From: Phyllobacterium sp. T1293
Lineage (GTDB): Bacteria > Pseudomonadota > Alphaproteobacteria > Rhizobiales > Rhizobiaceae
Length of the DNA stretch: 64,000 nt
Assembly (NCBI RefSeq): GCF_020731415.2
Contig: NZ_CP088273.1
Span: 2,299,001-2,363,000 of the forward strand
Reading direction: 5' to 3'
This document shows positions 523 to 20,518 of the stretch, in pieces (position 1 is the stretch's first letter; each line of letters begins with the position of its first letter). The position numbers and the translations under genes were made by a program. The notes under the pieces were generated by a model. It had not been told where the DNA came from. It saw only the letters and a program-made list of their open reading frames with translations, and did not search any database.

Positions 523-1203
523 ATGACCAAGAAGCTTACCCTGATCAGCCATCTCCTTTGCCCCTATGTGCAGCGCGCGGCAATTGCGCTCGCCGAAAAG
601 GGCGTGCCTTTTGAGAAAGTCTATATCGACCTCAACAACAAGCCCGACTGGTTTCTCAAGATTTCCCCGCTTGGCAAAGTCCCGTTGCTAAAGGTGGAGC
701 AGGAGGATGGCAGCGAGGCCATTCTGTTCGAAAGCTCGGTTATTGCCGAATATATCGAAGAAACCGAAGGCGAACCGCGTCTGCACCCCGATAATGCGCT
801 TGATCGCGCCCGCCATCGCGGCTGGATGGAATTCGGCTCAACCATCCTTTCGGATATCTGGTCGCTGGAAACCACCAAAGATGCAGGCCTGTTCGACGAG
901 AAGCTGAAAATACTGACAGGCAAATTCGGTCGTATCGAAGAGGTGCTGGGTGGTGGTCCATTCTTCGCGGGAAAGAAGTTCAGCCTTGTCGATGCGGTTT
1001 TTGCGCCGGTTTTCCGCTATTTCGATACATTTGACACCCTTGCCGAACATGGCGTGTTCGCGGCATATCCAAAAGTTCGTGCCTGGCGTCAGGCTCTGTC
1101 GGAGCGGCCAAGCGTCGTCGCTGCGGTCACTGCGGAATATCCACAGCTCCTGCGCCAGTTCATGGAACGCTATGATGCGCACATGCTGAAACTTGCGGCC
1201 TGA
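523..1203 (+). CDS. Glutathione S-transferase family protein
   Basis: A 226-residue protein starting at an ATG preceded by AGGAGAAACACC; longer in-frame starts upstream run into the previous gene and lack a ribosome site. The N-terminal thioredoxin-like domain (about 1-85) has SHLLCPYVQRAAIAL, where CPY sits at the usual catalytic position of omega/beta-like GSTs. ISPLGKVPLL supplies the cis-proline and FESSVIAEYIEE the glutathione gamma-glutamyl contact. An all-alpha C-terminal domain follows. It is cytosolic and conjugates or deglutathionylates small molecules; the CPY active site suggests thiol-transferase-like chemistry. Substrate unknown. Confidence 0.85.
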   Translation: MTKKLTLISHLLCPYVQRAAIALAEKGVPFEKVYIDLNNKPDWFLKISPLGKVPLLKVEQEDGSEAILFESSVIAEYIEETEGEPRLHPDNALDRARHRGWMEFGSTILSDIWSLETTKDAGLFDEKLKILTGKFGRIEEVLGGGPFFAGKKFSLVDAVFAPVFRYFDTFDTLAEHGVFAAYPKVRAWRQALSERPSVVAAVTAEYPQLLRQFMERYDAHMLKLAA

Positions 1204-1210
1204 ACCAGAA

Positions 1211-1564
1211 TTATTTGTCTGACCAGACTGCCAGTTCATAACCATCAGGGTCGGCGAAATGAAAGCGCCGGCCGCCGGGAAAGTCGAAAATCGGCTTGAC
1301 GATTTTTCCGCCGGCCGCTTCGACGCGCCTCAATGTGTCGGCAAGATCGTCCGCAAAGAGGATCACCAGCGGGCCACCCGGTTTGATATCTTCGCCAACT
1401 GCAAAGCCACCAGTCAGCTTCCCATCGGAAAACTCGCAATAATCAGGGCCATAATCCTTGAAAGTCCAGCCAAATGCCTCGCCATAGAAAGCGCGCATGC
1501 GCCCAATGTCACTCACATTGAACTCGATATAGTCAATACGCCTGTCTTTGCCCGATTGAGCCAT
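1211..1564 (-). CDS. VOC (glyoxalase/bleomycin-resistance) family protein
   Basis: A 117-residue single-domain protein starting MAQSGKDRRIDYIEF; a longer upstream start would overlap the preceding gene. It shows the two beta-alpha-beta-beta-beta modules of the vicinal oxygen chelate fold: IDYIEFNVSDIGRMRAFY at the start, and RRFHFADPDGYELAVWS with the usual DPDGYELA C-terminal motif. Members bind divalent metal and act as lyases, dioxygenases or drug-binding proteins. The gene follows an SRPBCC gene by 2 bases on the same strand, so the pair is co-transcribed. Function cannot be narrowed further. Confidence 0.8.
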   Translation of the reverse strand: MAQSGKDRRIDYIEFNVSDIGRMRAFYGEAFGWTFKDYGPDYCEFSDGKLTGGFAVGEDIKPGGPLVILFADDLADTLRRVEAAGGKIVKPIFDFPGGRRFHFADPDGYELAVWSDK

Positions 1565-1566
1565 CG

Positions 1567-1974
1567 TCACGTCCCCGGTGTTTCCAGAACGGCCTTCAAG
1601 GCCTTCAAATCCCGCAATACCCATGCCGCATCTTCGGCAAACTTGCCATCATTCATCTCCGGCATGCGAAAGAGGGTAAAACTAACCTCGCACCCATTAT
1701 TGTTCGGGATCACCCGCATCGGCGCATAGACCTCTTCGCCCGTTTCAGTGACGACCCAATGGTCGAGAACGCCATAATCATTCGGCGGGGAGAAACGTAT
1801 CCGCAGTTTTCCCGTGGGACCGTCCGCAAGCCACTCATCACCGAATTTCTGCAAGCCGGTTGCCAGTCCCGATGCCCATTTCGGCAGGTTGAGCGGATCG
1901 GAGGTAAAATCATAGGCGGCATGCCAATCGCGTTCGATGGATACCTGCAATGTTCGTGAGTCGCGCGTTGCCAC
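1567..1974 (-). CDS. SRPBCC (START/polyketide-cyclase-like) family protein
   Basis: The start is GTG at 1974, because a strong GGGAGG site sits 7-8 bases upstream; an ATG 24 codons further up has no such site. The product is 135 residues. The opening QVSIERDWHAAYDFTSDP and LPKWASG is the typical N-terminal helix-grip motif of SRPBCC ligand-binding proteins, followed by RIRFSPPNDYGVLDHWV. These proteins bind hydrophobic ligands in a deep pocket; many are of unknown role. It is first in a two-gene operon with the glyoxalase-fold protein and stops 2 bases before that gene starts. Confidence 0.75.
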   Translation of the reverse strand: MATRDSRTLQVSIERDWHAAYDFTSDPLNLPKWASGLATGLQKFGDEWLADGPTGKLRIRFSPPNDYGVLDHWVVTETGEEVYAPMRVIPNNNGCEVSFTLFRMPEMNDGKFAEDAAWVLRDLKALKAVLETPGT

Positions 1975-2183
1975 GGCTTGTCCTCCCAAATGACTGTTAC
2001 ATTCCCTACAGCTGAAGTGATCAGAGTCTGCCACCGGGGTGATCAAGGCTCGAATAGAATCCCTATAATCGATTTTATCCCATTGCCCGGCGATTTCCAG
2101 AACAACATTCCCGTCGCAAACCTTGCCTCACGCGGAGGTTCGCAGTAGTGCTTCCGGCAACTCCCAACAGGATAGAGAGCACG

Positions 2184-10610: not shown

Positions 10611-10674
10611 CGGCACCGGGGGCGGTGCCGGAATTGGGCGGTGGTTCCTTTGGACCGCCGCCCTTCTTTTTACT
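10611..10674 (+). terminator. Terminator after the L,D-transpeptidase gene
   Basis: Two hairpins in succession: GGCACC / GGTGCC at about 10612-10629, then a 9-bp stem GGGCGGTGG / CCGCCGCCC (10636-10663) followed by TTCTTTTT. The T-run overlaps the last codons of glcF on the opposite strand. Confidence 0.75.
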
Positions 10675-11995
10675 CAGCAGCCTGCAGGACAGGCGCTGGC
10701 ACACCTTCTGGTCTCGGGCCACCATAGACCCAATCCAGCAGTTCGACCGTATGAACAATAGGCATTTTTGCAGCACTGGCGATTTGGGTGATGCAGCCTA
10801 TATTGCCCGTGGCAATGATGCTCGCGCCGGTTGCCTCAATGTTTTTGACCTTGCGATCGCGCAGCGTGCGGGCGATTTCGGCCTGCATGATATTGTAGGT
10901 TCCGGCGGAACCACAGCACAAATGACCCTCGGCAGGTTCGCGGACGGTGAAACCAGCGGCTTTCAACAAATCCTTTGGCTGTCGGGTCAGCTTCTGCCCG
11001 TGCTGCATGGAACAGGCGGAATGGTAGGCGACAACCAGATCCGTCGACTGCAGAGGAGCAGGCAGATTAAGGGTTGTCAGATATTCGGTGATGTCCTTGG
11101 CAAGCCCTGAAATGACAGCCGCCTTGTCGCTATAAGCGGGATCAAGCCGCAGCATATAGCCGTAATCCTTGATCGTCGTGCCGCAGCCGGAAGCCGTGAC
11201 GATGATCGCATCGAGCCCGCCATTGTGCAGCTCGCGCGTCCAGACATCGACATTGCGGCGCGCATCATCCAGCGCTGCCTCCTCCCGGCCCATATGATGC
11301 ACCAGCGAGCCGCAACAGCCCTCGCCCTTCGGCACCACGACTTCGATGCCCAGCCGGGTGAGCAGGCGGATTGTTGCTTCGTTGATCCCCGGCTTCAATA
11401 CGGGCTGGGCGCAGCCGGTGAGGATCGCAACGCGTCCTTTCTTTTCGGTTGCCGGTTCGTGCAATCCAGGTTCGGCAAAGCGGGATTTTGCCGGAACCGA
11501 TTTTGGCGCAAGTTCAAGCATGGTGGCCAGCGGCTTCAACGCCTGAACGGATTTCAGCAGTGGGGCAAAAGGACGCCCGAGTTTCGCCGCCGTCAAAGAC
11601 AGCCTGAAGCGCGACGGATATGGCAGCACGAAGGCCAATAATGCCCTGATGAAACGGTTCATCACCGGACGTTTGTAGGTTTTTTCGATATGGGCGCGCG
11701 CATGATCCACCAGATGCATGTAGTTTACACCGGAGGGACAGGTGGTCATGCAGGCGAGGCAGGACAGGCAACGGTCCACATGCTTGACGATCTGCTCATC
11801 GGCGGCGCGGCCATTTTCCAGCATATCCTTGATCAGATAAATGCGGCCGCGCGGGCTGTCGAGTTCATTGCCAAGCGTGACATAGGTCGGGCATGTCGCG
11901 GTGCAAAACCCGCAATGCACGCATTTGCGCAGAATCTTTTCGGATTCGGCAACACCGGGGTCCTGCAATTGCTGCGGGGTGAAGTTGGTCTGCAC
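10670..11995 (-). CDS. glcF: Glycolate oxidase iron-sulfur subunit
   Basis: A 441-residue subunit that carries electrons from the flavin subunits of glycolate oxidase to the membrane chain. Two [4Fe-4S] motifs are seen: CVHCGFCTATCP (Cys25/28/31/35) and CLSCLACMTTCP (Cys76/79/82/86). Two CCG domains follow, with GEGCCGSLVHHMGRE near residue 220 and HLCCGSAGTYN near 357, each preceded by its TGCAQP or YHSACSMQHGQ partner. Last gene of glcD-(ASCH)-glcE-glcF, 3 bases after glcE. Confidence 0.95.
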   Translation of the reverse strand: MQTNFTPQQLQDPGVAESEKILRKCVHCGFCTATCPTYVTLGNELDSPRGRIYLIKDMLENGRAADEQIVKHVDRCLSCLACMTTCPSGVNYMHLVDHARAHIEKTYKRPVMNRFIRALLAFVLPYPSRFRLSLTAAKLGRPFAPLLKSVQALKPLATMLELAPKSVPAKSRFAEPGLHEPATEKKGRVAILTGCAQPVLKPGINEATIRLLTRLGIEVVVPKGEGCCGSLVHHMGREEAALDDARRNVDVWTRELHNGGLDAIIVTASGCGTTIKDYGYMLRLDPAYSDKAAVISGLAKDITEYLTTLNLPAPLQSTDLVVAYHSACSMQHGQKLTRQPKDLLKAAGFTVREPAEGHLCCGSAGTYNIMQAEIARTLRDRKVKNIEATGASIIATGNIGCITQIASAAKMPIVHTVELLDWVYGGPRPEGVPAPVLQAAE

Positions 11996-11998
11996 GTT

Positions 11999-13210
11999 CT
12001 ACACTCCTGCAACCATGCGGCCGGGGTTGAGAATACCCTCCGGGTCAAATTGCTGTTTGAGCCGCTTTGACAGCGCTGCCAAGGGCGCGGATTGCGGTTC
12101 GAAAACAGGTATTGAGGCACGAACCGCCACTGGAGCACGCACCAGCGTGGCATGGCCACCGCCATATTTTCTGATCAGCACCCGCACGGCTTCCGCTTCG
12201 GGTTCGCCTTCCAGCCGCATCCACACAAGTCCGCCCTGCCAGTCATAATAGGCGTCCACCGCAGCCCCCATCCGCATGGATGCGACCAGCTTATAGGCCT
12301 CCATCGGCGCCATCGAAACGCGCCAGACCGGCCGTTCGGTCCCGTCAGCGAAAGGAATAACGTCGCGCACTTCCTGCCAGAGTTTGCGCGAAATATCGCC
12401 GGAGATTTCTTCGATGGTACCTGCCGAGGACAACAATCCTCTTAGCATCGTCACCCGGTCGGCGACGGAAGGCGCAAAGCCTTCCAGCCGCAGTAATGTT
12501 GATGCCTCGCCTTTCAAAACGCCATCAATGACCCGGCCACAAATATTCACAGGCAGGTGCGCAGCGGATGCCACTTCGCCGCTGGAACCCATGGCGATGG
12601 CCATGGCACGCGCGGCCTCATCATCCATCAACCCTCGGATAATGAGCGTTGTTTCCGTCTCCGGCGCGGGCAGAACCTTGAAAGTGATCTCCGTTGCGAT
12701 GCCAAGCGTGCCCCAGGAATTGGCCATGCCCTTGGAAAGATCATAGCCGGTCACATTCTTGACCACACGGCCACCGGATTTGAACAATTCGCCCCGCCCC
12801 GATACGACCCGCACACCCAGCACATGATCGCGCGCCGAGCCCGCCTTCAACCGGCGCGGACCGCACAGATTGGTGGCGAGAACCCCGCCAAGGCTGCCTT
12901 GTCCTGCCGCCTCGCCCAGCAATGAGCCGTAATCCATGGGCTCGAATTGAAACGCTTGGCCTTTCGAGGCCAGCAGGGCTTCCAGCTCCGCGACTGGTGT
13001 TCCGGCTTTGGCGCTCAACACCAGTTCATCGGGCTCATACAGCGTCACGCCTACATATTTCGACAGGGCAATCGAATGTTCGGTCTGAAGAGGACGACCA
13101 AGCCCACGCTTGGAGCCATGGCCAGAGACTTCCACGGGCGCGCGCTCGGACAACGCCCATTGCACGGCCTCGACAATTTCTGCTTCGGTTGAAGGCGTGA
13201 ACATGGTCAT
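11999..13210 (-). CDS. glcE: Glycolate oxidase FAD-binding subunit
   Basis: A 403-residue FAD-linked subunit that with GlcD and GlcF oxidises glycolate to glyoxylate. The PCMH-type FAD domain covers about residues 1-175, with VSGHGSKRGLGRP, LSAKAGTPVAELEALLASKGQ and GGVLATNLCGPRRL, where the usual FAD-pyrophosphate contacts fall. The GRVVKNVTGYDLSKGM stretch is characteristic of GlcE. The start overlaps the preceding ASCH gene's stop region with a single spacer base, which implies tight translational coupling. Confidence 0.93.
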   Translation of the reverse strand: MTMFTPSTEAEIVEAVQWALSERAPVEVSGHGSKRGLGRPLQTEHSIALSKYVGVTLYEPDELVLSAKAGTPVAELEALLASKGQAFQFEPMDYGSLLGEAAGQGSLGGVLATNLCGPRRLKAGSARDHVLGVRVVSGRGELFKSGGRVVKNVTGYDLSKGMANSWGTLGIATEITFKVLPAPETETTLIIRGLMDDEAARAMAIAMGSSGEVASAAHLPVNICGRVIDGVLKGEASTLLRLEGFAPSVADRVTMLRGLLSSAGTIEEISGDISRKLWQEVRDVIPFADGTERPVWRVSMAPMEAYKLVASMRMGAAVDAYYDWQGGLVWMRLEGEPEAEAVRVLIRKYGGGHATLVRAPVAVRASIPVFEPQSAPLAALSKRLKQQFDPEGILNPGRMVAGV

Positions 13211-13211
13211 T

Positions 13212-13781
13212 TCATTGCCCGTCCAGAAAATCTTGGCCGCGTGGCGATAGCCGGTAGCCGATATCGAGACTGATGGTCAAACCCACCTCCTTGAGCTTGC
13301 GCACATCACGTTTGAATTTGACCGTTTCGACGCCAAGCTGTGCGGCGAGATTTGCAGCGACCACGCCCGGATGGTCGGCAATCATGCGCAGGATTTGCCT
13401 ATGATAACCGACATATTCAGCCGCTTTGTCCCAGCGCGCCAGCCGATCCATCAAAGCAACCTTGTCCGCTTGGGACAATGGTTCTTCGCGCAGAGCAGTT
13501 CTCTCATCGGCTTCAACACCTGCGATGGCGATACGATAGAGCGTTCCATCACCATCACGCAGATTGCGGGTCAAAGCAGCAATATTATCAAAACCGGCAC
13601 GTTTGGCGTCTTCCGCAGTCAGCTTGTCCGGGTTGACCATATCCACCGCACCGATGATCAGCGAACCAATGGTCGTGCGCAGACGCGTACCGGCCTTGAC
13701 GGTCGGACGAGTCCAGCGCCGAAACGCCAGATCGACTTCCCCGCGTGCAATAGCTTCCAGCGTTTGTGCCTTGAACAACAT
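13212..13781 (-). CDS. ASCH-domain / winged-helix protein inside the glc operon
   Basis: A 189-residue protein of unproven function. Residues 1 to about 95 (FKAQTLEAIARGEVDLAFRR, then WTRPTVKAG and GSLIIGAVDMV) resemble the ASCH domain, a PUA-like beta-barrel proposed to bind RNA or nucleotides. Residues from about 115 (ILRMIADHPGVVAANLAAQLG, then VETVKFKRDVRKLKEVGLT) read as a winged helix-turn-helix. It sits 3 bases after glcD and 1 base before glcE, so it must be co-translated with glycolate oxidase. A regulatory or RNA-binding role for the operon is inference; it has no oxidase motif. Confidence 0.75.
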   Translation of the reverse strand: MLFKAQTLEAIARGEVDLAFRRWTRPTVKAGTRLRTTIGSLIIGAVDMVNPDKLTAEDAKRAGFDNIAALTRNLRDGDGTLYRIAIAGVEADERTALREEPLSQADKVALMDRLARWDKAAEYVGYHRQILRMIADHPGVVAANLAAQLGVETVKFKRDVRKLKEVGLTISLDIGYRLSPRGQDFLDGQ

Positions 13782-13784
13782 CGA

Positions 13785-15281
13785 TCAGAATCTCGGAATA
13801 TCTGGAAATGGCACCTGACCGCGATGCACATGCATTCGGCCAAGTTCAGCGCAGCGGTGCAATTGCGGAAAAACTTTGCCGGGATTGAGCAGATGCTTGT
13901 CATCAAAAGCGCATTTGACCCGGATTTGCTGGTTCAGATCAATCTCGTTGAACATCTCAGGCATCAGATCCCGCTTTTCAACGCCGACGCCATGTTCGCC
14001 GGTAAGAACACCGCCCACCTTCACACACAGCCTCAGGATGTCAGCGCCAAAATCCTCGGCCTTGCGCAATTCATCGGGAATATTCGCGTCATAGAGGATC
14101 AGCGGATGCAGATTGCCATCACCCGCATGGAACACATTGGCGACGCGCAACCCGTATTTTTCCGACAGTTCGCGCATGCCAGCAAGAACCTTCGGCAGTT
14201 CCTTGCGCGGGATCGTACCATCCATACACAGATAATCAGGCGAGATGCGTCCAACGGCGGGAAACGCCGCCTTGCGCCCAGCCCAGAACGCCATGCGCTC
14301 ATCTTCGCTCTGGGATATCACGCAGGACGAAGCGCCGTTCTTACCCGCAATCTTCTCGACCATATCGATGAGATGGTTGACCTCAACTGCGGGGCCATCG
14401 AGTTCAATGATCAGCAGCGCTTCCACATCCAGCGGATAACCCGCATGCACAAAATCTTCGGCAGCATGGATTGCCGGGCGATCCATCATCTCCATGCCGC
14501 CCGGAATAATACCAGCGGCGATGATATCGGCGACGCATTGCCCGGCTGTTTCGCTTGAAGGAAACCCGACCATCAGTGCGCGGGCGGTTGCAGGCTTTTG
14601 CAGAATGCGCACAGTGACCTCGGTCACGACACCGAGCAGCCCTTCGGAACCTGTCATCAGGCCCAGAAGATCATAACCTTCCGAATCCAGATGCTTGCCG
14701 CCCAGCCGCACCACTTCACCTGTGATGAGCACCATTTCCAGCCCAAGCACATTGTTGGCCGTCAGCCCATATTTCAGGCAATGCACGCCGCCGGAATTTT
14801 CCGCGACATTGCCACCGATGGAACAGGCGATCTGCGAGGACGGATCAGGTGCGTAGTAAAAACCCTCATGCTCGACGGCCTTTGTGATGCCGAGATTGGT
14901 TACACCCGGCTGCACGACGGCGACGCGGTTCGGATAGTCGATTTCGAGAATGCGATTGAAGCGGGACATGACGAGCAGAACCGCATCTTCCAGCGGCAAT
15001 GCACCGCCGGAGAGCGAGGTACCTGACCCGCGCGGCACGACCTTCACATTGTTTTCATGACAATATTTCAGGACTTGCGAGACTTGGCGAACGGTCTGCG
15101 GCAGGACAACAACTAGCGGCAGCTGGTGATAGGCGGTCAGGGCATCGGATTCAAAGGCGCGCATTTCATTGGTGATATCAACCACGCCTTCATCAGGAAC
15201 AATGGCTTGCAATGCGGCAACGATGTCGCTGCGCCGCGCCATGATCGCCGCATCAGCCTTCGGCATCACCAACCCGGACAT
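13785..15281 (-). CDS. glcD: Glycolate oxidase, FAD-linked catalytic subunit
   Basis: A 498-residue flavoprotein of the D-2-hydroxyacid dehydrogenase/GlcD type that oxidises glycolate to glyoxylate. The FAD-binding PCMH core is clear: VVPRGSGTSLSGGALP (near 84), NRVAVVQPGVTNLGITKAV and SSQIACSIGGNVAENSGG. The C-terminal FAD-oxidase domain has NVFHAGDGNLHPLIL and GGVLTGEHGVGVEKRD. A strong GGGAGG site precedes the ATG. First gene of the glc operon; the promoter region upstream carries two palindromes, one of which recurs in front of a FadR-type regulator gene. Confidence 0.94.
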   Translation of the reverse strand: MSGLVMPKADAAIMARRSDIVAALQAIVPDEGVVDITNEMRAFESDALTAYHQLPLVVVLPQTVRQVSQVLKYCHENNVKVVPRGSGTSLSGGALPLEDAVLLVMSRFNRILEIDYPNRVAVVQPGVTNLGITKAVEHEGFYYAPDPSSQIACSIGGNVAENSGGVHCLKYGLTANNVLGLEMVLITGEVVRLGGKHLDSEGYDLLGLMTGSEGLLGVVTEVTVRILQKPATARALMVGFPSSETAGQCVADIIAAGIIPGGMEMMDRPAIHAAEDFVHAGYPLDVEALLIIELDGPAVEVNHLIDMVEKIAGKNGASSCVISQSEDERMAFWAGRKAAFPAVGRISPDYLCMDGTIPRKELPKVLAGMRELSEKYGLRVANVFHAGDGNLHPLILYDANIPDELRKAEDFGADILRLCVKVGGVLTGEHGVGVEKRDLMPEMFNEIDLNQQIRVKCAFDDKHLLNPGKVFPQLHRCAELGRMHVHRGQVPFPDIPRF

Positions 15282-15308: not shown

Positions 15309-15331
15309 ACTGGTAAATTATTTTTACCAGT
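15309..15331. promoter_or_regulatory. Candidate operator upstream of glcD: ACTGG-N13-CCAGT
   Basis: A 23-base inverted repeat with 9-base perfect arms (ACTGGTAAA / TTTACCAGT) and a 5-base A/T-rich centre, 28 bases upstream of the glcD ATG. The same ACTGG-N13-CCAGT geometry occurs at 19658-19680 in front of the FadR-family regulator gene. It is probably an operator; its position near the start suggests repression. Confidence 0.55.
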
Positions 15332-15339
15332 GACACCAG

Positions 15340-15362
15340 CAGTTTCTAAACAGTCTAAACTG
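15340..15362. promoter_or_regulatory. Second palindrome upstream of glcD
   Basis: CAGTTT-N11-AAACTG, again 23 bases long, with a direct TCTAAAC repeat inside it. It lies 8 bases from the first palindrome and may be a second operator or the site of a different regulator. Confidence 0.35.
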
Positions 15363-15410
15363 TTGCCGTTCCTTCGTCATGGGGCGGCATGGAGCCAAAG
15401 TGACGCGCGA

Positions 15411-16040
15411 CTAGCTGGAACGCAGCTTTTCGAAACCCGCGACAAGTGCCGCAAGTCCAAATTCAAAGCCCTCATCCGGGGAGATATGTTCAACTTCGAC
15501 AAAAGCTTGAGCCAGCATTGGAAATGCCGCACGCATCTCAGGCGTCAAATCTGGCGAACCGATCTCCGGCATGGACGCCTGTTGCTCGAGCACCGAACCG
15601 ACAACGTAATGCCCCGTCACCCGCAACACATGCGCAGCCGGCACCAGATCGAAACCAGCGGCAACCATGAATTGAATTTGTGCCTCCACGGCTGGAAAGA
15701 ATACCGGACCTGGACGCGAACCCGCATGAATCCGCGCGCCGTCACGATAGGCCAGTAAGGCGCGCCTGAAGCCACGCGCATTCTCGGTCAGGAAATGCCG
15801 CCAGTCCTCGCCTTTCTCAGGGATGGACGGTCCATGATGTTCAACCAGAATCGCCTCGGCCAAAGCATCGAGCAAGGCAGCTTTGTCCTTGAAATGCCAG
15901 TAAAGCGCCGGTTGCTGCACACCAAGAGCCGTGGCAATGCGCCGGGTGGTCAGCCCATCAATGCCGGTTTCATCAAGCAGATCGAGAGCCACCCGGATAA
16001 CGCTCTCGCGCTGCAATTTTACATCACTACGTTTTGCCAT
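15411..16040 (-). CDS. tetR: TetR-type tetracycline repressor
   Basis: A 209-residue repressor starting MAKRSDVKLQRESVIRVAL; a TTG start 9 bases upstream is possible but unneeded. The helix-turn-helix GLTTRRIATALGVQQPALYWHFKDKAALLDAL is nearly that of plasmid TetR proteins. The C-terminal ligand domain keeps ENARGFRRALLAYRDGARIHAG, the tetracycline-pocket region of true TetR. It is divergent from a TetA-type efflux gene, with two tet-like palindromes between them, so it should repress both genes until a tetracycline-Mg complex binds. The assignment rests on remembered class C/A sequences. Confidence 0.9.
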   Translation of the reverse strand: MAKRSDVKLQRESVIRVALDLLDETGIDGLTTRRIATALGVQQPALYWHFKDKAALLDALAEAILVEHHGPSIPEKGEDWRHFLTENARGFRRALLAYRDGARIHAGSRPGPVFFPAVEAQIQFMVAAGFDLVPAAHVLRVTGHYVVGSVLEQQASMPEIGSPDLTPEMRAAFPMLAQAFVEVEHISPDEGFEFGLAALVAGFEKLRSS

Positions 16041-16049
16041 GCTTGACAA

Positions 16050-16093
16050 TTTATCACCGATAAAGGATATGTCTAGTTACTTATCAACGATAA
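16050..16093. promoter_or_regulatory. Two tet-type operators between tetR and tetA
   Basis: TTTATC-ACC-GATAAA at 16050-16064 and TTATC-AAC-GATAA at 16081-16093. Both have a 3-base centre and the TATC/GATA arms of classical tetO (consensus TCTATC-N3-GATAGA). Their tandem arrangement in the 66-base divergent gap matches O1/O2 of known tet operons. Confidence 0.8.
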
Positions 16094-16106
16094 ATAAGAG
16101 TTTCCC

Positions 16107-17306
16107 ATGACTTTCAACAAACCTCTGACCGTGATCCTGACGACCGTCACCCTTGATGCTATCGGCATTGGGATGATCATGCCCGTTTTGCCGCGGCTGC
16201 TGACGACGCTGGCTCATTCCGATAATGTCGCACGGCACTACGGTGTTCTTCTTGCCCTATACGCGCTGATGCAATTTGTGTTCGCGCCGCTGCTCGGCGC
16301 ACTGAGTGATCGGTTCGGCCGACGCCCTGTTATTCTCGGTTCCCTTGCAGGCGCGGCACTTGATTATCTGGTGATGGCTTTTGCGACTGTGCTGCCGCTG
16401 CTCTATATCGGCCGCATCATTTCAGGCGTCACCGGTGCCACCATGTCCGTGGCAAGTGCGACGATCGCCGACATCACTCCTGAACAGAACCGGGCCAAAC
16501 GTTTTGGCATGATCGGCGCCTGTTTCGGCCTCGGCTTCATCGCCGGGCCATTGCTCGGCGGTATCGCTGGCGGTTTCGGCGTCCACTATCCATTCCTGCT
16601 CGCCATGGCCCTCAATGGCCTCAACTTCCTGTTCGCTCTCTTCTTCCTTCCGGAAACCAGCAAGGGTGAGAAAACGCCCTTTTCACTGCGCAGCCTGAAC
16701 CCCATTGGCTCATTCCAGTGGATCACCAGTATCAAAACCCTGACGCCACTGGTTGCGATGTTCACACTGCTGCAACTGGTCGGCCAGTTGCCCGGTGCCC
16801 TCTGGATTATCTACACGCAGGACCAGTTTCTCTGGAGCGTCTCCACTGTTGGCATTTCACTCGCAGCATTTGGTCTGCTGCATGCACTGGTGCAGGGAAT
16901 GCTGACTGGCCCTGTGACCGGGAAGATCGGCGAAAAACGTACGCTGGTCCTTGGAATGGCCACGGACTGTATCGGTTATCTGCTGATGGCATTCGCCACC
17001 CAAAGCTGGATGGTCGCGCCCATTCTGTTTTTCCTTTCCATGGGCGGCATTGCAACGCCCGCACTTCAATCCATCATCACCCGGCAGGTTGATGCGAGCA
17101 AAGTCGGCGAAGTTCAGGGGGTTCTGGCAAGCGCAACCAGTTTGGCCGGTATTATCGGGCCGGTGATCTTCACGACGATTTATGCAGCAACGCGGACCGA
17201 CTGGAGTGGATTGGTGTGGGTTTGTGGTGCAGCGCTCTATGTTCTTTGCATTCCCATGCTGCGCGTCGTCGCCTATCGCCATGCCGAAAGTGCTTCGAGG
17301 GCTTGA
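16107..17306 (+). CDS. tetA: Tetracycline efflux MFS transporter, TetA type
   Basis: A 399-residue 12-helix major-facilitator antiporter that exchanges a tetracycline-metal complex for a proton at the inner membrane. VTLDAIGIGMIMPVLPRLL in helix 1, the loop 2-3 motif GALSDRFGRRPV, GRIISGVTGATMSVA and the C-terminal Q-rich IITRQVDASKVGEVQGVLAS all match TetA of classes A/C closely. It is divergent from tetR, with paired operators between. No transposon, integron or resistance island surrounds it, so it appears to be a resident chromosomal locus. Confidence 0.88.
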   Translation: MTFNKPLTVILTTVTLDAIGIGMIMPVLPRLLTTLAHSDNVARHYGVLLALYALMQFVFAPLLGALSDRFGRRPVILGSLAGAALDYLVMAFATVLPLLYIGRIISGVTGATMSVASATIADITPEQNRAKRFGMIGACFGLGFIAGPLLGGIAGGFGVHYPFLLAMALNGLNFLFALFFLPETSKGEKTPFSLRSLNPIGSFQWITSIKTLTPLVAMFTLLQLVGQLPGALWIIYTQDQFLWSVSTVGISLAAFGLLHALVQGMLTGPVTGKIGEKRTLVLGMATDCIGYLLMAFATQSWMVAPILFFLSMGGIATPALQSIITRQVDASKVGEVQGVLASATSLAGIIGPVIFTTIYAATRTDWSGLVWVCGAALYVLCIPMLRVVAYRHAESASRA

Positions 17307-17338
17307 CCTTCCGATAGTCAGGCAGAAAGAGTGCTCTG

Positions 17339-18238
17339 ATGGATCATTTGAACGATATGGAAATTTTTGCCCGTGTTGTTTCCGCCGGCAGCATGTCGGC
17401 GGCCGGACGGGAACTTGGACTATCCCCAGCCGTCATGTCCAAACGGTTGCGACGGCTGGAAGAAAGACTGGGTACACGGCTTTTGCAGCGCACCACCCGG
17501 CAGATAGCCCTGACCGAAACGGGCCAGGGCTATTATGAGCGGGTGCTTGCCATTCTATCAGGCATTGAAGAGGCGGAAGCTTTCGTGTCCCGCCGCTCCG
17601 AGCAGGCGCATGGTCAATTGAAAGTTTCTGCACCTACAACCTTTGGCCGTATGCATATTGCCCCGCATCTGGAACCCTTCATGCGGGCCAATCCTGACCT
17701 TTCCATCAATCTTATTTTGACCGACGAATTTGTCGATATTGTCGGCGAAGGTTATGACCTCGCCATCCGCATCGCCGAATTGTCGGATTCAAGTCTCGTC
17801 GCGCGCAAACTGGCGCCGGTGCGGCGGTTTCTTGTGGCCTCACCGCGCTATATCGCCGAGCATGGGATGCCATGCTCCATTGCCGATCTCGACAATCATG
17901 TTTGCCTTGCCGCGCACAATGGTGATCCCTGGCGCCTGAATGGTCTGGATGGCAGCATATCACTACGCCCCACTGGGCCAATCCTGACCAATTCCAGCGA
18001 AGTGGTGCGGGCGGCGGTGCTTGGCGGTCTTGGAATTGCCTTGCGCTCAACATGGGATATCGGCCCGGAACTGGCATCGGGTCAGTTGTTGCGCGTGCTA
18101 GAAGATTATGCAGCATCAGGCAATATCGCCATCTATGCGATCTACCCTTCCCGGCAGTTTCTTCCGGCAAAGGTGCGGGTGTTCATCGACTATCTCGCTG
18201 CGCTTTACGGGCCCGTGGCATCATGGGACCGGGTCTGA
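17339..18238 (+). CDS. LysR-family transcriptional regulator
   Basis: A 299-residue regulator. Its N-terminal winged HTH (about 5-64) reads MEIFARVVSAGSMSAAGREL, then LGLSPAVMSKRLRRLEERLG, close to the large CrgA/YhjC-like LysR subgroup. A periplasmic-binding-like effector domain follows, with SAPTTFGRMHIAPHLEPFM and the NSSEVVRAAVLGGLGIALRS dimer region. It starts 32 bases after tetA on the same strand, so read-through is possible, but nothing ties it to tetracycline. No oxidoreductase target is divergent from it. Its stop abuts the DUF3422 stop with no gap. Confidence 0.88.
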   Translation: MDHLNDMEIFARVVSAGSMSAAGRELGLSPAVMSKRLRRLEERLGTRLLQRTTRQIALTETGQGYYERVLAILSGIEEAEAFVSRRSEQAHGQLKVSAPTTFGRMHIAPHLEPFMRANPDLSINLILTDEFVDIVGEGYDLAIRIAELSDSSLVARKLAPVRRFLVASPRYIAEHGMPCSIADLDNHVCLAAHNGDPWRLNGLDGSISLRPTGPILTNSSEVVRAAVLGGLGIALRSTWDIGPELASGQLLRVLEDYAASGNIAIYAIYPSRQFLPAKVRVFIDYLAALYGPVASWDRV

Positions 18239-19546
18239 TCATTCGTCCTTGTGGGACTTGCGGATCGATTTGACCACAAACCACATGGCGATGATGGCGA
18301 CAGGGACAAATGCCGCCGTGACAACGGAAGAATGCAGGTCCGGCGCATAGGCTTCGACGCCCTTGGCGAGATAATAGAACAGCCCCACCACGTAGTAGGA
18401 AATCGCCGCAACTGACAGCCCTTCGACAGTGCGTTGCAAACGCAATTGCAATTGCGCGCGCCGGTTCATCGAACTCAGCAGATCACGATTCTGCCGTTCC
18501 AGTTCCACATCGACAGAGGTGCGCAGCAGCGTTGCCGCACGAGAGAGTTTTTCAGACAGGTTTTCCTGACGCTCGCTGACCGAATAACAGGTGCGCATGG
18601 CCGGGGCCATACGGCGCTGAATAAAGGCCGCCCATGTCTCGTATCCGGTTACAGACTCTTCGTGCAGCGCCGCCAGCCGTTCCAGCACAATACCATCATA
18701 GGCACGGCTCGCGCCGAAGCGATAAAGGCTTGACGCAGCATCAGCTTCCAGTTCCGCCGCCAGCAACGTCAATTCATCCAAAAGCTTATGATTATCCGCA
18801 TCCGCCGCACGCATTTCTGTTGTCAGCCCCGCCAGACGATCCTCAATACGGCGAATGCGCGGCGACAGGGAATGCGCCAGCGGCAGCCCGAGCATGGCAA
18901 GCGTTCGGTAGGTCTCTATTTCGATCACCCGCTGCGACAAGGCCCCGGCACGGGCGGGCGACAGACCATTGTCGAGAATGAGAATACGGGTCATCCCATC
19001 CTTATCCTGCCGAAAATCCGTGATGATCGAGGCAAGCCCATTTTCGACATCACTGTAGCACAGACTGGTCGGATCAAATTCCTCGATAACAGCGTCAGCC
19101 GCATTGTCTTTCCGGATAATCTCAAGCCGCACACCGTCGATGACCGTACCCGGAGGATTGAAACCATCGCCGAAAGGATGTTGTGCGGTCTGCCCCGTAC
19201 GCGGCACGGGACCTTCCCACAGATAGGTCGAGAATTCCGTATGCCGTTCCCAGCGCAAAGTACCGTTGCCCCACGGCATAATATGGTGGCGGGCATCGCG
19301 GGCGGGCGGCGTGATACCAATGCTTCGGCTCAGTTCCGCAAGCACCGCATGATCGACGGTTGAGCCCGCTTCAGTCATGAAAGCGAGCTGGATGAGGAGG
19401 CGCGGCGAATCCACCAGCGGATAGGGACGCGCATGAACTTCACCCAAGGCAATCGAACGCTCTGCATGTCCCGGAAAGCCCATGACGCCGGAACTTGAAG
19501 CAGCGCTTGCAAAAGCCGCCGCGGTCTTCAGTCTTTTCCCCTTCAT
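18239..19546 (-). CDS. DUF3422 family protein with two C-terminal membrane helices
   Basis: A 435-residue conserved proteobacterial protein of unknown function. The N-terminal half begins with the family's EVHARPYPLVDSPRLLIQLAF and continues to about residue 230 (LRWERHTEFSTYLWEG). The second half is helical, with a predicted coiled coil around IRRIEDRLAGL and LEADAASSLYRFGASRAYDG. Two membrane helices lie near 372-425 (VAAISYYVVGLFYYLA; VVTAAFVPVAIIAMWFVV), followed by a basic tail. The topology suggests a cytoplasmic domain anchored by a C-terminal hairpin. It is divergent from the FadR-type regulator. Confidence 0.8.
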   Translation of the reverse strand: MKGKRLKTAAAFASAASSSGVMGFPGHAERSIALGEVHARPYPLVDSPRLLIQLAFMTEAGSTVDHAVLAELSRSIGITPPARDARHHIMPWGNGTLRWERHTEFSTYLWEGPVPRTGQTAQHPFGDGFNPPGTVIDGVRLEIIRKDNAADAVIEEFDPTSLCYSDVENGLASIITDFRQDKDGMTRILILDNGLSPARAGALSQRVIEIETYRTLAMLGLPLAHSLSPRIRRIEDRLAGLTTEMRAADADNHKLLDELTLLAAELEADAASSLYRFGASRAYDGIVLERLAALHEESVTGYETWAAFIQRRMAPAMRTCYSVSERQENLSEKLSRAATLLRTSVDVELERQNRDLLSSMNRRAQLQLRLQRTVEGLSVAAISYYVVGLFYYLAKGVEAYAPDLHSSVVTAAFVPVAIIAMWFVVKSIRKSHKDE

Positions 19547-19656
19547 ATCGGCCCCTTGATCGCCTGTTCACAAGATGGTGAACGCAATGCCCTGTCCTTT
19601 CAATGCTACTTTACGCCAATCCGCTGCGGCTATGCGACGCTTATCGGCTGACGGAC

Positions 19657-19681
19657 AACTGGACAAAAGAATTGACCAGTT
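19657..19681. promoter_or_regulatory. Candidate operator upstream of the FadR-type regulator: ACTGG-N13-CCAGT
   Basis: AACTGG / CCAGTT inverted repeat, 25 bases overall, 55 bases before the regulator's ATG and 111 bases before the divergent DUF3422 start. It repeats the ACTGG-N13-CCAGT spacing of the palindrome at glcD. This suggests autoregulation plus control of the glc operon by the same protein. Confidence 0.5.
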
Positions 19682-19735
19682 TTGTGGTTTGCCGATACGC
19701 TGAAATCGCAAATCACTTCCGCGGACGATTTCACC

Positions 19736-20518
19736 ATGAGCAGCCCGATCTTTGCCCGCATCCAGCCGTCGCGCACCGCTGACGATATTGTCAGCCAGAT
19801 CGAAACGCTGATCCTTGAAGGCATTCTGCGCGTGGGGGACCGTTTGCCCGGCGAACGGGATCTTTCCGTACAGTTCGATGTCTCTCGGCCGATCCTGCGC
19901 GATGCCTTCAAGACGCTGGAAGCCAAGGGACTGCTTGTTGCCCGTCATGGTGGTGGAACCTTTGTTGCCGATGTCATCGGCGAGGTGTTTTCGAAGCCGG
20001 TGATGGACCTCATCTCCAGTCATAAGAAGGCAGCCGCTGATTACCTTGAATATCGCCGGGAAATTGAAAGTATCGCTGCCGATTATGCGGCCCGCCGGGC
20101 GACGGACGATGACCGGTTACTGCTCTCCCGAATCGTCGAGGCCATGCAATTGGCTTACGAGACCAATGACGCCAAGAAAGAGGCTGAACTGGATGTTGAA
20201 TTGCACAGCACCATCGGTGAGTGCGCGCACAATATCATCCTGCTGCACACGCTGCGCTCCTGCTACCGACTACTGGCCGATGACGTGTTCTACAATCGCA
20301 CAGTGATTTACGGTTTTCCCGGCGCGCGGGAAAAACTGCTGCAACAGCACAAAGCCATCGCCAATGCCATCATGGCATCCGATCCTGATGAAGCCCGGGC
20401 CGCTGTGCGCGCGCATATCGACTTCATCGAACAGGCGCAGCAGGATGCGGAACGCAGCAGCGCCTGGCAGGCAACGTCGCGATTGCGCCGGAGCCAGAGG
20501 GAATTGGATCGCCCATGA
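19736..20518 (+). CDS. GntR-family regulator, FadR/FCD subfamily (PdhR/LldR/GlcC-like)
   Basis: A 260-residue regulator starting MSSPIFARIQPSRTADDIVSQIE. The winged HTH (about 10-75) contains GDRLPGERDLSVQFDVSRPILRDAF, the FadR-type recognition region. The FCD effector domain (about 95-235) has ELDVELHSTIGECAHN and a later HKAIANAIMASDPDEARAAVRAHI, which supply the metal-binding histidines and aspartate of carboxylate-sensing members such as LldR, PdhR and GlcC. It shares a palindrome with the glc operon 4 kb away, so glycolate or lactate is a reasonable effector (inference). Its stop overlaps the next gene by ATGA. Confidence 0.88.
   Translation: MSSPIFARIQPSRTADDIVSQIETLILEGILRVGDRLPGERDLSVQFDVSRPILRDAFKTLEAKGLLVARHGGGTFVADVIGEVFSKPVMDLISSHKKAAADYLEYRREIESIAADYAARRATDDDRLLLSRIVEAMQLAYETNDAKKEAELDVELHSTIGECAHNIILLHTLRSCYRLLADDVFYNRTVIYGFPGAREKLLQQHKAIANAIMASDPDEARAAVRAHIDFIEQAQQDAERSSAWQATSRLRRSQRELDRP

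Follow-up and report, generated by a model that had tools for sequence, protein, structure and literature searches.

Widely spaced palindromes as probable operators of a GlcR-like regulator, upstream of glcD and of its own gene in Phyllobacterium

Known regulators of hydroxy-acid genes and the Phyllobacterium locus

Regulators of the FadR subfamily of GntR proteins typically bind palindromes with 3 nt, or in some groups 2 nt, between GT and AC, and exceptions such as NanR are mentioned in passages of PMC4494728. For one of them, GlcR of Paracoccus denitrificans, the part of PMC11323563 covered reports that it acts as a repressor and that glycolate, unlike glyoxylate, lowers its DNA binding; the same part holds no mapped GlcR site. 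Here, we investigated a stretch of 64,000 nucleotides from Phyllobacterium sp. T1293 (hereafter the window), in which the palindrome ACTGG-N13-CCAGT precedes both glcD, the first gene of a glycolate oxidase operon (glcDEF), and a gene for a FadR-type regulator with an FCD domain. The initial annotation had suggested that this palindrome links the operon to the regulator. We consider it highly probable that the two palindromes are operators of this one regulator (19736-20518), which would repress its own gene and glcDEF and would be released by glycolate or a related acid.

In the P. denitrificans record (L146), glcDEF is divergent from a regulator sharing 38.9% identity with that of the window, and TGGTATAATTTTCAGACCA occurs in the shared intergenic region. 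From the gene order, we take this divergent regulator to be GlcR (Pden_4400). The two systems are alike in that GlcR is also a FadR-subfamily GntR protein encoded beside glcDEF, and the Paracoccus region holds a TGG-N13-CCA palindrome. The window regulator likewise lies in the glc neighbourhood, and it is directly divergent from glcD in 9 of the named loci described below. In contrast, the identity to the presumed GlcR is limited, and in the window other genes, namely a tetR/tet pair, lysR, and a gene for a DUF3422 protein, separate the regulator from glcD.

Three Escherichia coli proteins, PdhR, LldR, and GlcC, share the GntR-FCD architecture with the regulator. The sites of E. coli PdhR and of the lldP promoter have the same TGGT half-site and AA/TT flanks as the palindrome studied here, and the SRPxLRxA stretch of the recognition helix is almost identical in PdhR and the regulator, which align without gaps from the winged helix-turn-helix (wHTH) into the FCD domain. 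However, the E. coli pdhR and lldP promoters carry TGG-N5-CCA, whereas the spacing here is N13. DhdR of Achromobacter is a FadR-type repressor of a 2-hydroxy-acid gene, and its footprint overlaps its own -35 region (passages of PMC8651671; PDB 9jpj). Its site, GTTATCAGATAAC, resembles ours in not being GT-N3-AC, but it is a 13-bp palindrome with another half-site sequence, and the effector is D-2-hydroxyglutarate. In addition, a comparative study of 2016 (PMC5343134, in part) stated that the half-site spacer of the alphaproteobacterial GlcC motif differs in length from that in beta- and gammaproteobacteria. That predicted glycolate regulator is like the one studied here in its alphaproteobacterial spacer difference; the text covered gives neither a spacer length nor a protein list, and the protein and spacing meant there may or may not be those studied here. 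Thus, a spacing difference in alphaproteobacteria had been hinted at before, and the wide geometry is the point of interest; the literature passages searched contained no footprint or structure for a site this wide in this regulator group.

Chance level, conservation, and spacing of the palindrome

As the initial annotation had claimed, the window holds exactly two mismatch-free copies of ACTGG-N13-CCAGT, at 15309-15331 and 19658-19680. The former is located 28-50 nt ahead of glcD, which starts with the ATG at 15281 on the minus strand, and the latter 56-78 nt upstream of the probable ATG of the regulator at 19736; the automatic start of this open reading frame (ORF) was a TTG at 19682, and we set it at 19736 because relatives align from that position, where an ATG is found. 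Being near chance genome-wide, the bare 5+13+5 pattern is weak evidence by itself. It was found at 9 places in the genome (5.07 Mb), compared with 6 for a reversed control pattern, and about 0.1 occurrences are expected per 64 kb at the genome rate; when up to 2 mismatches were allowed, the window had 33 matches, where 20.0 were expected (standard deviation 4.6). The two palindromes nevertheless stand out from chance, because the glcD copy has 9-base arms (ACTGGTAAA...TTTACCAGT) and because their scores with a position matrix are unique in the window. This matrix, symmetric and 27 bases long, was built from the named loci except L066 (P. brassicacearum), and Phyllobacterium was thus left out. 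In a scan of the window it exceeded 5 bits only at the two palindromes (32.6 and 31.0 bits), while the 99.9th percentile of 2000 mononucleotide-shuffled promoters was 8.8 bits. The 7 remaining exact places in the genome scored from -10.4 to 7.7 bits. Since the bare motif is weak, the case rests on comparative evidence.

The named loci are 80 alphaproteobacterial loci with the regulator (the best 80 of 477), fetched from an alignment of 14 regulators; they were mostly from Rhizobiales, with some Rhodobacterales and metagenome-assembled genomes. Upstream of the regulator and glcD genes of these loci, TGG-Nk-CCA was counted for k = 0 to 25. The counts peaked only at k = 13, which occurred in 73/80 regulator promoters and 60/70 glcD promoters, whereas the highest counts at any other spacing were 8 and 9, respectively. 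The spacing is rigid, as k = 12 occurred in 8/80 and k = 14 in 2/80 regulator promoters, and the canonical FadR-type k = 5 was at background (2/80 and 4/70). In the same procedure, the E. coli control promoters pdhR and lldP were best at k = 5 (GT-N3-AC), and glcC gave a tie of 5 and 13 with a weak score. The consensus of the aligned sites was AAnTGGTnAA-N5-TTnACCAnTT; six Phyllobacterium glcD sites start with AGGTAAA. Accordingly, the N13 geometry proposed at the outset stands, but ACTGG/CCAGT is not the conserved unit, which is TGGTnAA-N5-TTnACCA with AAn/nTT flanks. The site is also as unusually wide as had been claimed: the conserved form is GT-N11-AC, with 11 nt between GT and AC against the 3 nt (in some groups 2 nt) typical of the subfamily, which adds 8 bp to the distance between the half-sites of a usual FadR-type site.

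The matches were confined to the two promoters. Among 129 matches of at least 14 bits in 1,250,452 bases of the named loci, none fell outside them, and such matches occurred upstream of the regulator in 70 of 80 loci and upstream of glcD in 63 of 70. The on-target matches in these loci are not independent of the training of the matrix; the absence of off-target matches and the Phyllobacterium panel are.

Co-occurrence was examined in a second panel of 59 genomes of relatives, of which 55 contained glcD and 53 were examined (the upstream DNA of G042 and G043 was not included). Of the 22 genomes with the regulator, 18 had a glcD site, counted when the matrix exceeded 10 bits; none of the 29 genomes lacking the regulator had one, and their highest score was 0.5 bits (Fisher P = 2.6e-10, uncorrected for kinship). 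Two genomes with more distant homologues (G029, 38%; G033, 34%) stood outside this two-by-two count, and both were without a glcD site. Within Phyllobacterium, all 11 genomes that have the regulator carried the site, and none of the 9 others did. Outside Phyllobacterium, at least one entry of this panel (G056) comes from the same record as one of the named loci (L143). The state of regulator and site changed at least twice within the genus on a glcD tree with 19 congeners, and 3 times on a tree of 22 rows including three outgroups; both trees leave out G018, in which glcD is divided between two contigs. Lack of conservation in relatives had been named at the outset as a possible refutation; the motif proved to be kept upstream of both glcD and the regulator. 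Together, conservation, co-occurrence, and rigid spacing strongly back the link between the glycolate operon and the regulator.

The alignments also suggested how the sites may lie relative to the promoters. The right half of the site is TTGACCA in regulator promoters, and a loosely conserved TA...T follows after about 17 nt; in the window, TTGACC (19672-19677) is thus a candidate for the -35 box, which the operator probably covers. About 20 nt ahead of the site, glcD promoters have a TTTGC-like box, and the operator there probably covers the -10 region.

The regulator, its proposed mechanism, and the alternatives

The regulator has the domain architecture of the FadR subfamily, with Pfam scores of 69.3 bits for GntR (cut-off 27) and 87.3 bits for FCD (cut-off 24.3). 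Its scores to the NCBIfam models were all below cut-off, PdhR being the nearest equivalog (220 against 330 bits), followed by LldR (182 against 311) and GlcC (150 against 301). The AlphaFold model (predicted local distance difference test score 84.7) matched GntR/FCD structures in Foldseek, and such a model agrees with the family assignment and is uninformative about the arrangement of the dimer on DNA. In a quick tree, assessed only by the Shimodaira-Hasegawa-like approximate likelihood ratio test (SH-aLRT), the wide-site regulators were apart from E. coli LldR and PdhR, and GlcC was on a long, uncertain branch. D153, H157, H205, and H227 were invariant in the 14 aligned homologues, and their spacings are close to those of the metal ligands Asn137, His141, His192, and His214 of the FCD protein Atu1419, as described in part of PMC7797058. 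By analogy, the regulator may bind a metal, which would suit a 2-hydroxy-acid ligand.

The protein that reads the palindrome could also be another one, and the LysR-type regulator encoded at 17339-18238 was the main rival. Sites of LysR proteins follow a T-N11-A rule, and GGT-N11-ACC fits it, so that the glcD site is readable in this way. Moreover, lysR is adjacent to and divergent from glcD in 6 of 19 congeners (G005, G007, G009, G014, G017, and G019) and in many of the named loci, with the site within the divergent region. However, the sites did not follow lysR. Among loci whose fetched stretch showed no lysR gene, 40 of 43 regulator promoters and 31 of 34 glcD promoters retained the site; in the loci with lysR, it was present in 33 of 37 and 29 of 36. 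In 9 loci without lysR in the fetched stretch, glcD and the regulator gene are directly divergent, 122-210 bp apart, and all 9 had at least one site. In addition, a class-wide panel of 289 genomes yielded 15 homologues of the regulator (36-45% identity), most with neighbourhoods unseen, and 13 of them had a site of at least 10 bits upstream. The congener G012 has a DUF3422 gene and no lysR within 1.5 kb beside glcD, and there the regulator is kept and the glcD site persists at 29.4 bits. The regulator is indicated as the binding protein because G012 and the lysR-free named loci keep their sites. Thus, sites are kept in loci without a detected lysR and do not depend on a linked LysR gene, and we rejected LysR as the binding protein, which would be a very improbable reading. 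An unlinked transcription factor that binds both promoters, with the regulator as a mere target, appeared slightly less probable still. In its favor, the regulator and PdhR have closely similar DNA-binding domains, and the site in the PdhR promoter is narrower by 8 bp. Yet the regulator and the glcD site are present together and absent together, having changed state at least twice within the genus, and the site lies upstream of the regulator across alphaproteobacteria, beside differing target genes. The dependence of the sites on the regulator rather than on the LysR gene was computed here, as were the sites themselves, their conservation, and their rigid spacing.

Two further readings accept the regulator as the binding protein and differ in what it would do. 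The initial annotation had considered a looped arrangement of half-sites, and both sites might belong to a repression complex held together by a tetramer of the regulator. A DNA-looping tetramer has been proposed for Atu1419 (PMC7797058, in part), so that an FCD tetramer of this kind is on record, and two sites separated by 74-111 bp occur in 5 of the 9 directly divergent loci. In the window, however, the sites are 4.3 kb apart, the distances in the divergent loci (74, 84, 105, 108, and 111 bp) share no single helical phase, and in 4 of the 9 loci a single site of at least 14 bits serves both promoters. Looping is not needed, as these 4 loci have one site, and we rejected it on that ground and for the want of a common helical phase; we hold it to be very improbable. 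Nor did the half-site version find support, each element being a complete palindrome with rigid internal spacing, 4.3 kb from the other, and single-site divergent loci being present. Less far-fetched, though unlikely, is that the palindrome at 19658 also controls the DUF3422 gene and that the DUF3422 protein acts in glycolate use. The DUF3422 start (19546) and this palindrome share one intergenic region, and the gene is divergent from the regulator at no more than 600 bp in 51 of 80 named loci. Nevertheless, the site stays upstream of the regulator in loci without DUF3422 at that place, and because of this we assign it first to the regulator.

Several results weigh against control of glcDEF by this regulator through these sites, or against parts of that reading. 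TGG-N13-CCA was missing from 7 of 80 named regulator promoters, and four genomes of the second panel (G044, G046, G051, and G056) have a homologue (44-56% identity) without a glcD site. With up to 1 mismatch, the core TGGTnAA-N5-TTnACCA occurred at 11 places in the genome against 12 for the control, and a consensus promoter scan of the window found no sigma-70 promoter at either site. In all 8 regulator-less congeners examined (G018 excluded), glcD adjoins the start of the phosphoesterase gene, which elsewhere comes after the regulator; the block of lysR, DUF3422, and the regulator was therefore lost in one piece, and co-loss in the genus cannot single out the regulator. In addition, the presumed GlcR (L146) and the window regulator fell into different groups of the quick tree (SH-aLRT only), so the inducer may differ.

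Repression by the regulator at both promoters is the reading that we prefer. The regulator would bind the wide inverted repeat TGGTnAA-N5-TTnACCA ahead of glcD and of its own gene and would block RNA polymerase at both promoters, resulting in autorepression and in repression of glcDEF. A 2-hydroxy acid, most likely glycolate by analogy with Paracoccus GlcR and possibly lactate, would bind the FCD domain and release the regulator. From the sequences, we infer that binding is direct, that it represses rather than activates, and that the dimer spans the extra 8 bp.

Neighbouring genes, further targets, and the meaning of the wide site

The coordinates of the features are given in Table 1. The genes of the operon follow in the order glcD, a 189-amino-acid (aa) ORF, glcE, and glcF. 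For glcD, the best matches were GlcD and TIGR00387, both under cut-off. A homologue of the 189-aa ORF was found in only 1 of 80 named loci (L102).

Table 1. Coordinates in the window of the putative operators, the regulator gene, and the glycolate oxidase operon
Feature	Coordinates	Strand	Basis
Putative operator, glcD promoter	15309..15331		Core TGGTAAA 15311-15317, 5-nt spacer, TTTACCA 15323-15329; exact match; matrix 32.6 bits
Putative operator, regulator promoter	19658..19680		Core TGGACAA 19660-19666, 5-nt spacer, TTGACCA 19672-19678; exact match; matrix 31.0 bits
GntR/FadR-subfamily regulator with FCD domain, 260 aa, GlcR-like, likely binding protein	19736..20518	+	Pfam, NCBIfam, AlphaFold
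glcD, glycolate oxidase flavin adenine dinucleotide (FAD) subunit, first gene of the operon	13785..15281	-	NCBIfam GlcD 703.6 bits (cut-off 897), TIGR00387 541.7 bits (cut-off 567.9)
189-aa ORF between glcD and glcE	13212..13781	-	Matches no Pfam family
glcE, glycolate oxidase subunit	11999..13210	-	NCBIfam GlcE 280.5 bits (cut-off 284)
glcF, glycolate oxidase iron-sulfur subunit	10670..11995	-	NCBIfam GlcF 462 bits (cut-off 333)

Between glcD and lysR, positions 15411-17306 encode a tetR-like repressor and a tetracycline-type efflux protein of the major facilitator superfamily (tet_MFS_A_B_C_D, 537.6 bits, cut-off 475). The pair also adjoins glcD in the congeners G015 and G016 and, as fragments, in G004, and it was not found there in the other 15 of 19 examined. 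The nearest NCBIfam model of the LysR regulator was YafC/TtdR. Because of this nearness, and because TtdR is said to control ethylene glycol metabolism in Pseudomonas (part of PMC13357446), the window LysR may be a second regulator of glcD. The name DUF3422 was absent from the literature searched; the conserved linkage of its gene (18239-19546) to the regulator hints at a role in hydroxy-acid metabolism.

Homologues of the regulator were also found beside other genes. One in Azospirillum (L147) lies beside an L-lactate permease gene, and one in Leisingera (L149) beside genes for a tripartite ATP-independent periplasmic transporter and a D-lactate dehydrogenase; TGG-N13-CCA occurs in the divergent region of each. 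In Hoeflea (L068:8001-11734), genes resembling lutABC, for L-lactate utilisation, follow the regulator, suggesting that glycolate and L-lactate oxidation may be under joint control there.

A larger regulon may or may not exist in the genome of the window. Besides the operators, this genome had 9 core matches with up to 1 mismatch, of which 6 scored under 10 bits and the others 18.5, 16.4, and 14.2 bits. The 18.5-bit match resembles a sequence in the regulator-less genome G001, and the 14.2-bit match is inside an ORF. The 16.4-bit match, TGGTCAAGCTAAATGACCA (L234:2196-2214), is located roughly 170 nt ahead of an ORF that is porin-like (921-2024, minus strand), a possible further target and the best lead among the extra matches. 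A genus-wide pattern search with up to 2 mismatches covered 19 genomes, with matches listed for 10. Among these, the recurring ACTTGCAAAAT..., AAATAGCTAAT..., and AACTAGG... were also present in regulator-less genomes and were not counted as targets. Another sequence, ACTTGCAAAATCAATTTTACCAGTT (G000:C1:20042-20066), recurred almost unchanged in 9 of the 10 listed genomes of Phyllobacterium, with or without the regulator, and is probably another element.

Among the carbon compounds that algae and plants release, glycolate is a major one, and its use by bacteria begins with glycolate oxidase. With the present analysis, a widespread rhizobial regulator gains a precise predicted operator, two clear target promoters, and a likely inducer, and a site hypothesis is supplied for Paracoccus GlcR. 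A broader proposition, to which we give an even chance, is that a large alphaproteobacterial FadR-type branch, serving glycolate and lactate genes, reads a rigid operator with half-sites 8 bp further apart than those of PdhR and LldR, through a recognition helix that is nearly unchanged and a wHTH-FCD junction that aligns with that of PdhR without a gap. If this is true, the dimer would hold its DNA-binding domains on the DNA otherwise than on a narrow site, and the operator spacing would have evolved without a change of the half-site. The analysis also makes of a passing remark of the literature on spacer length a clean structural question, namely how relatives read the same half-site at two spacings.

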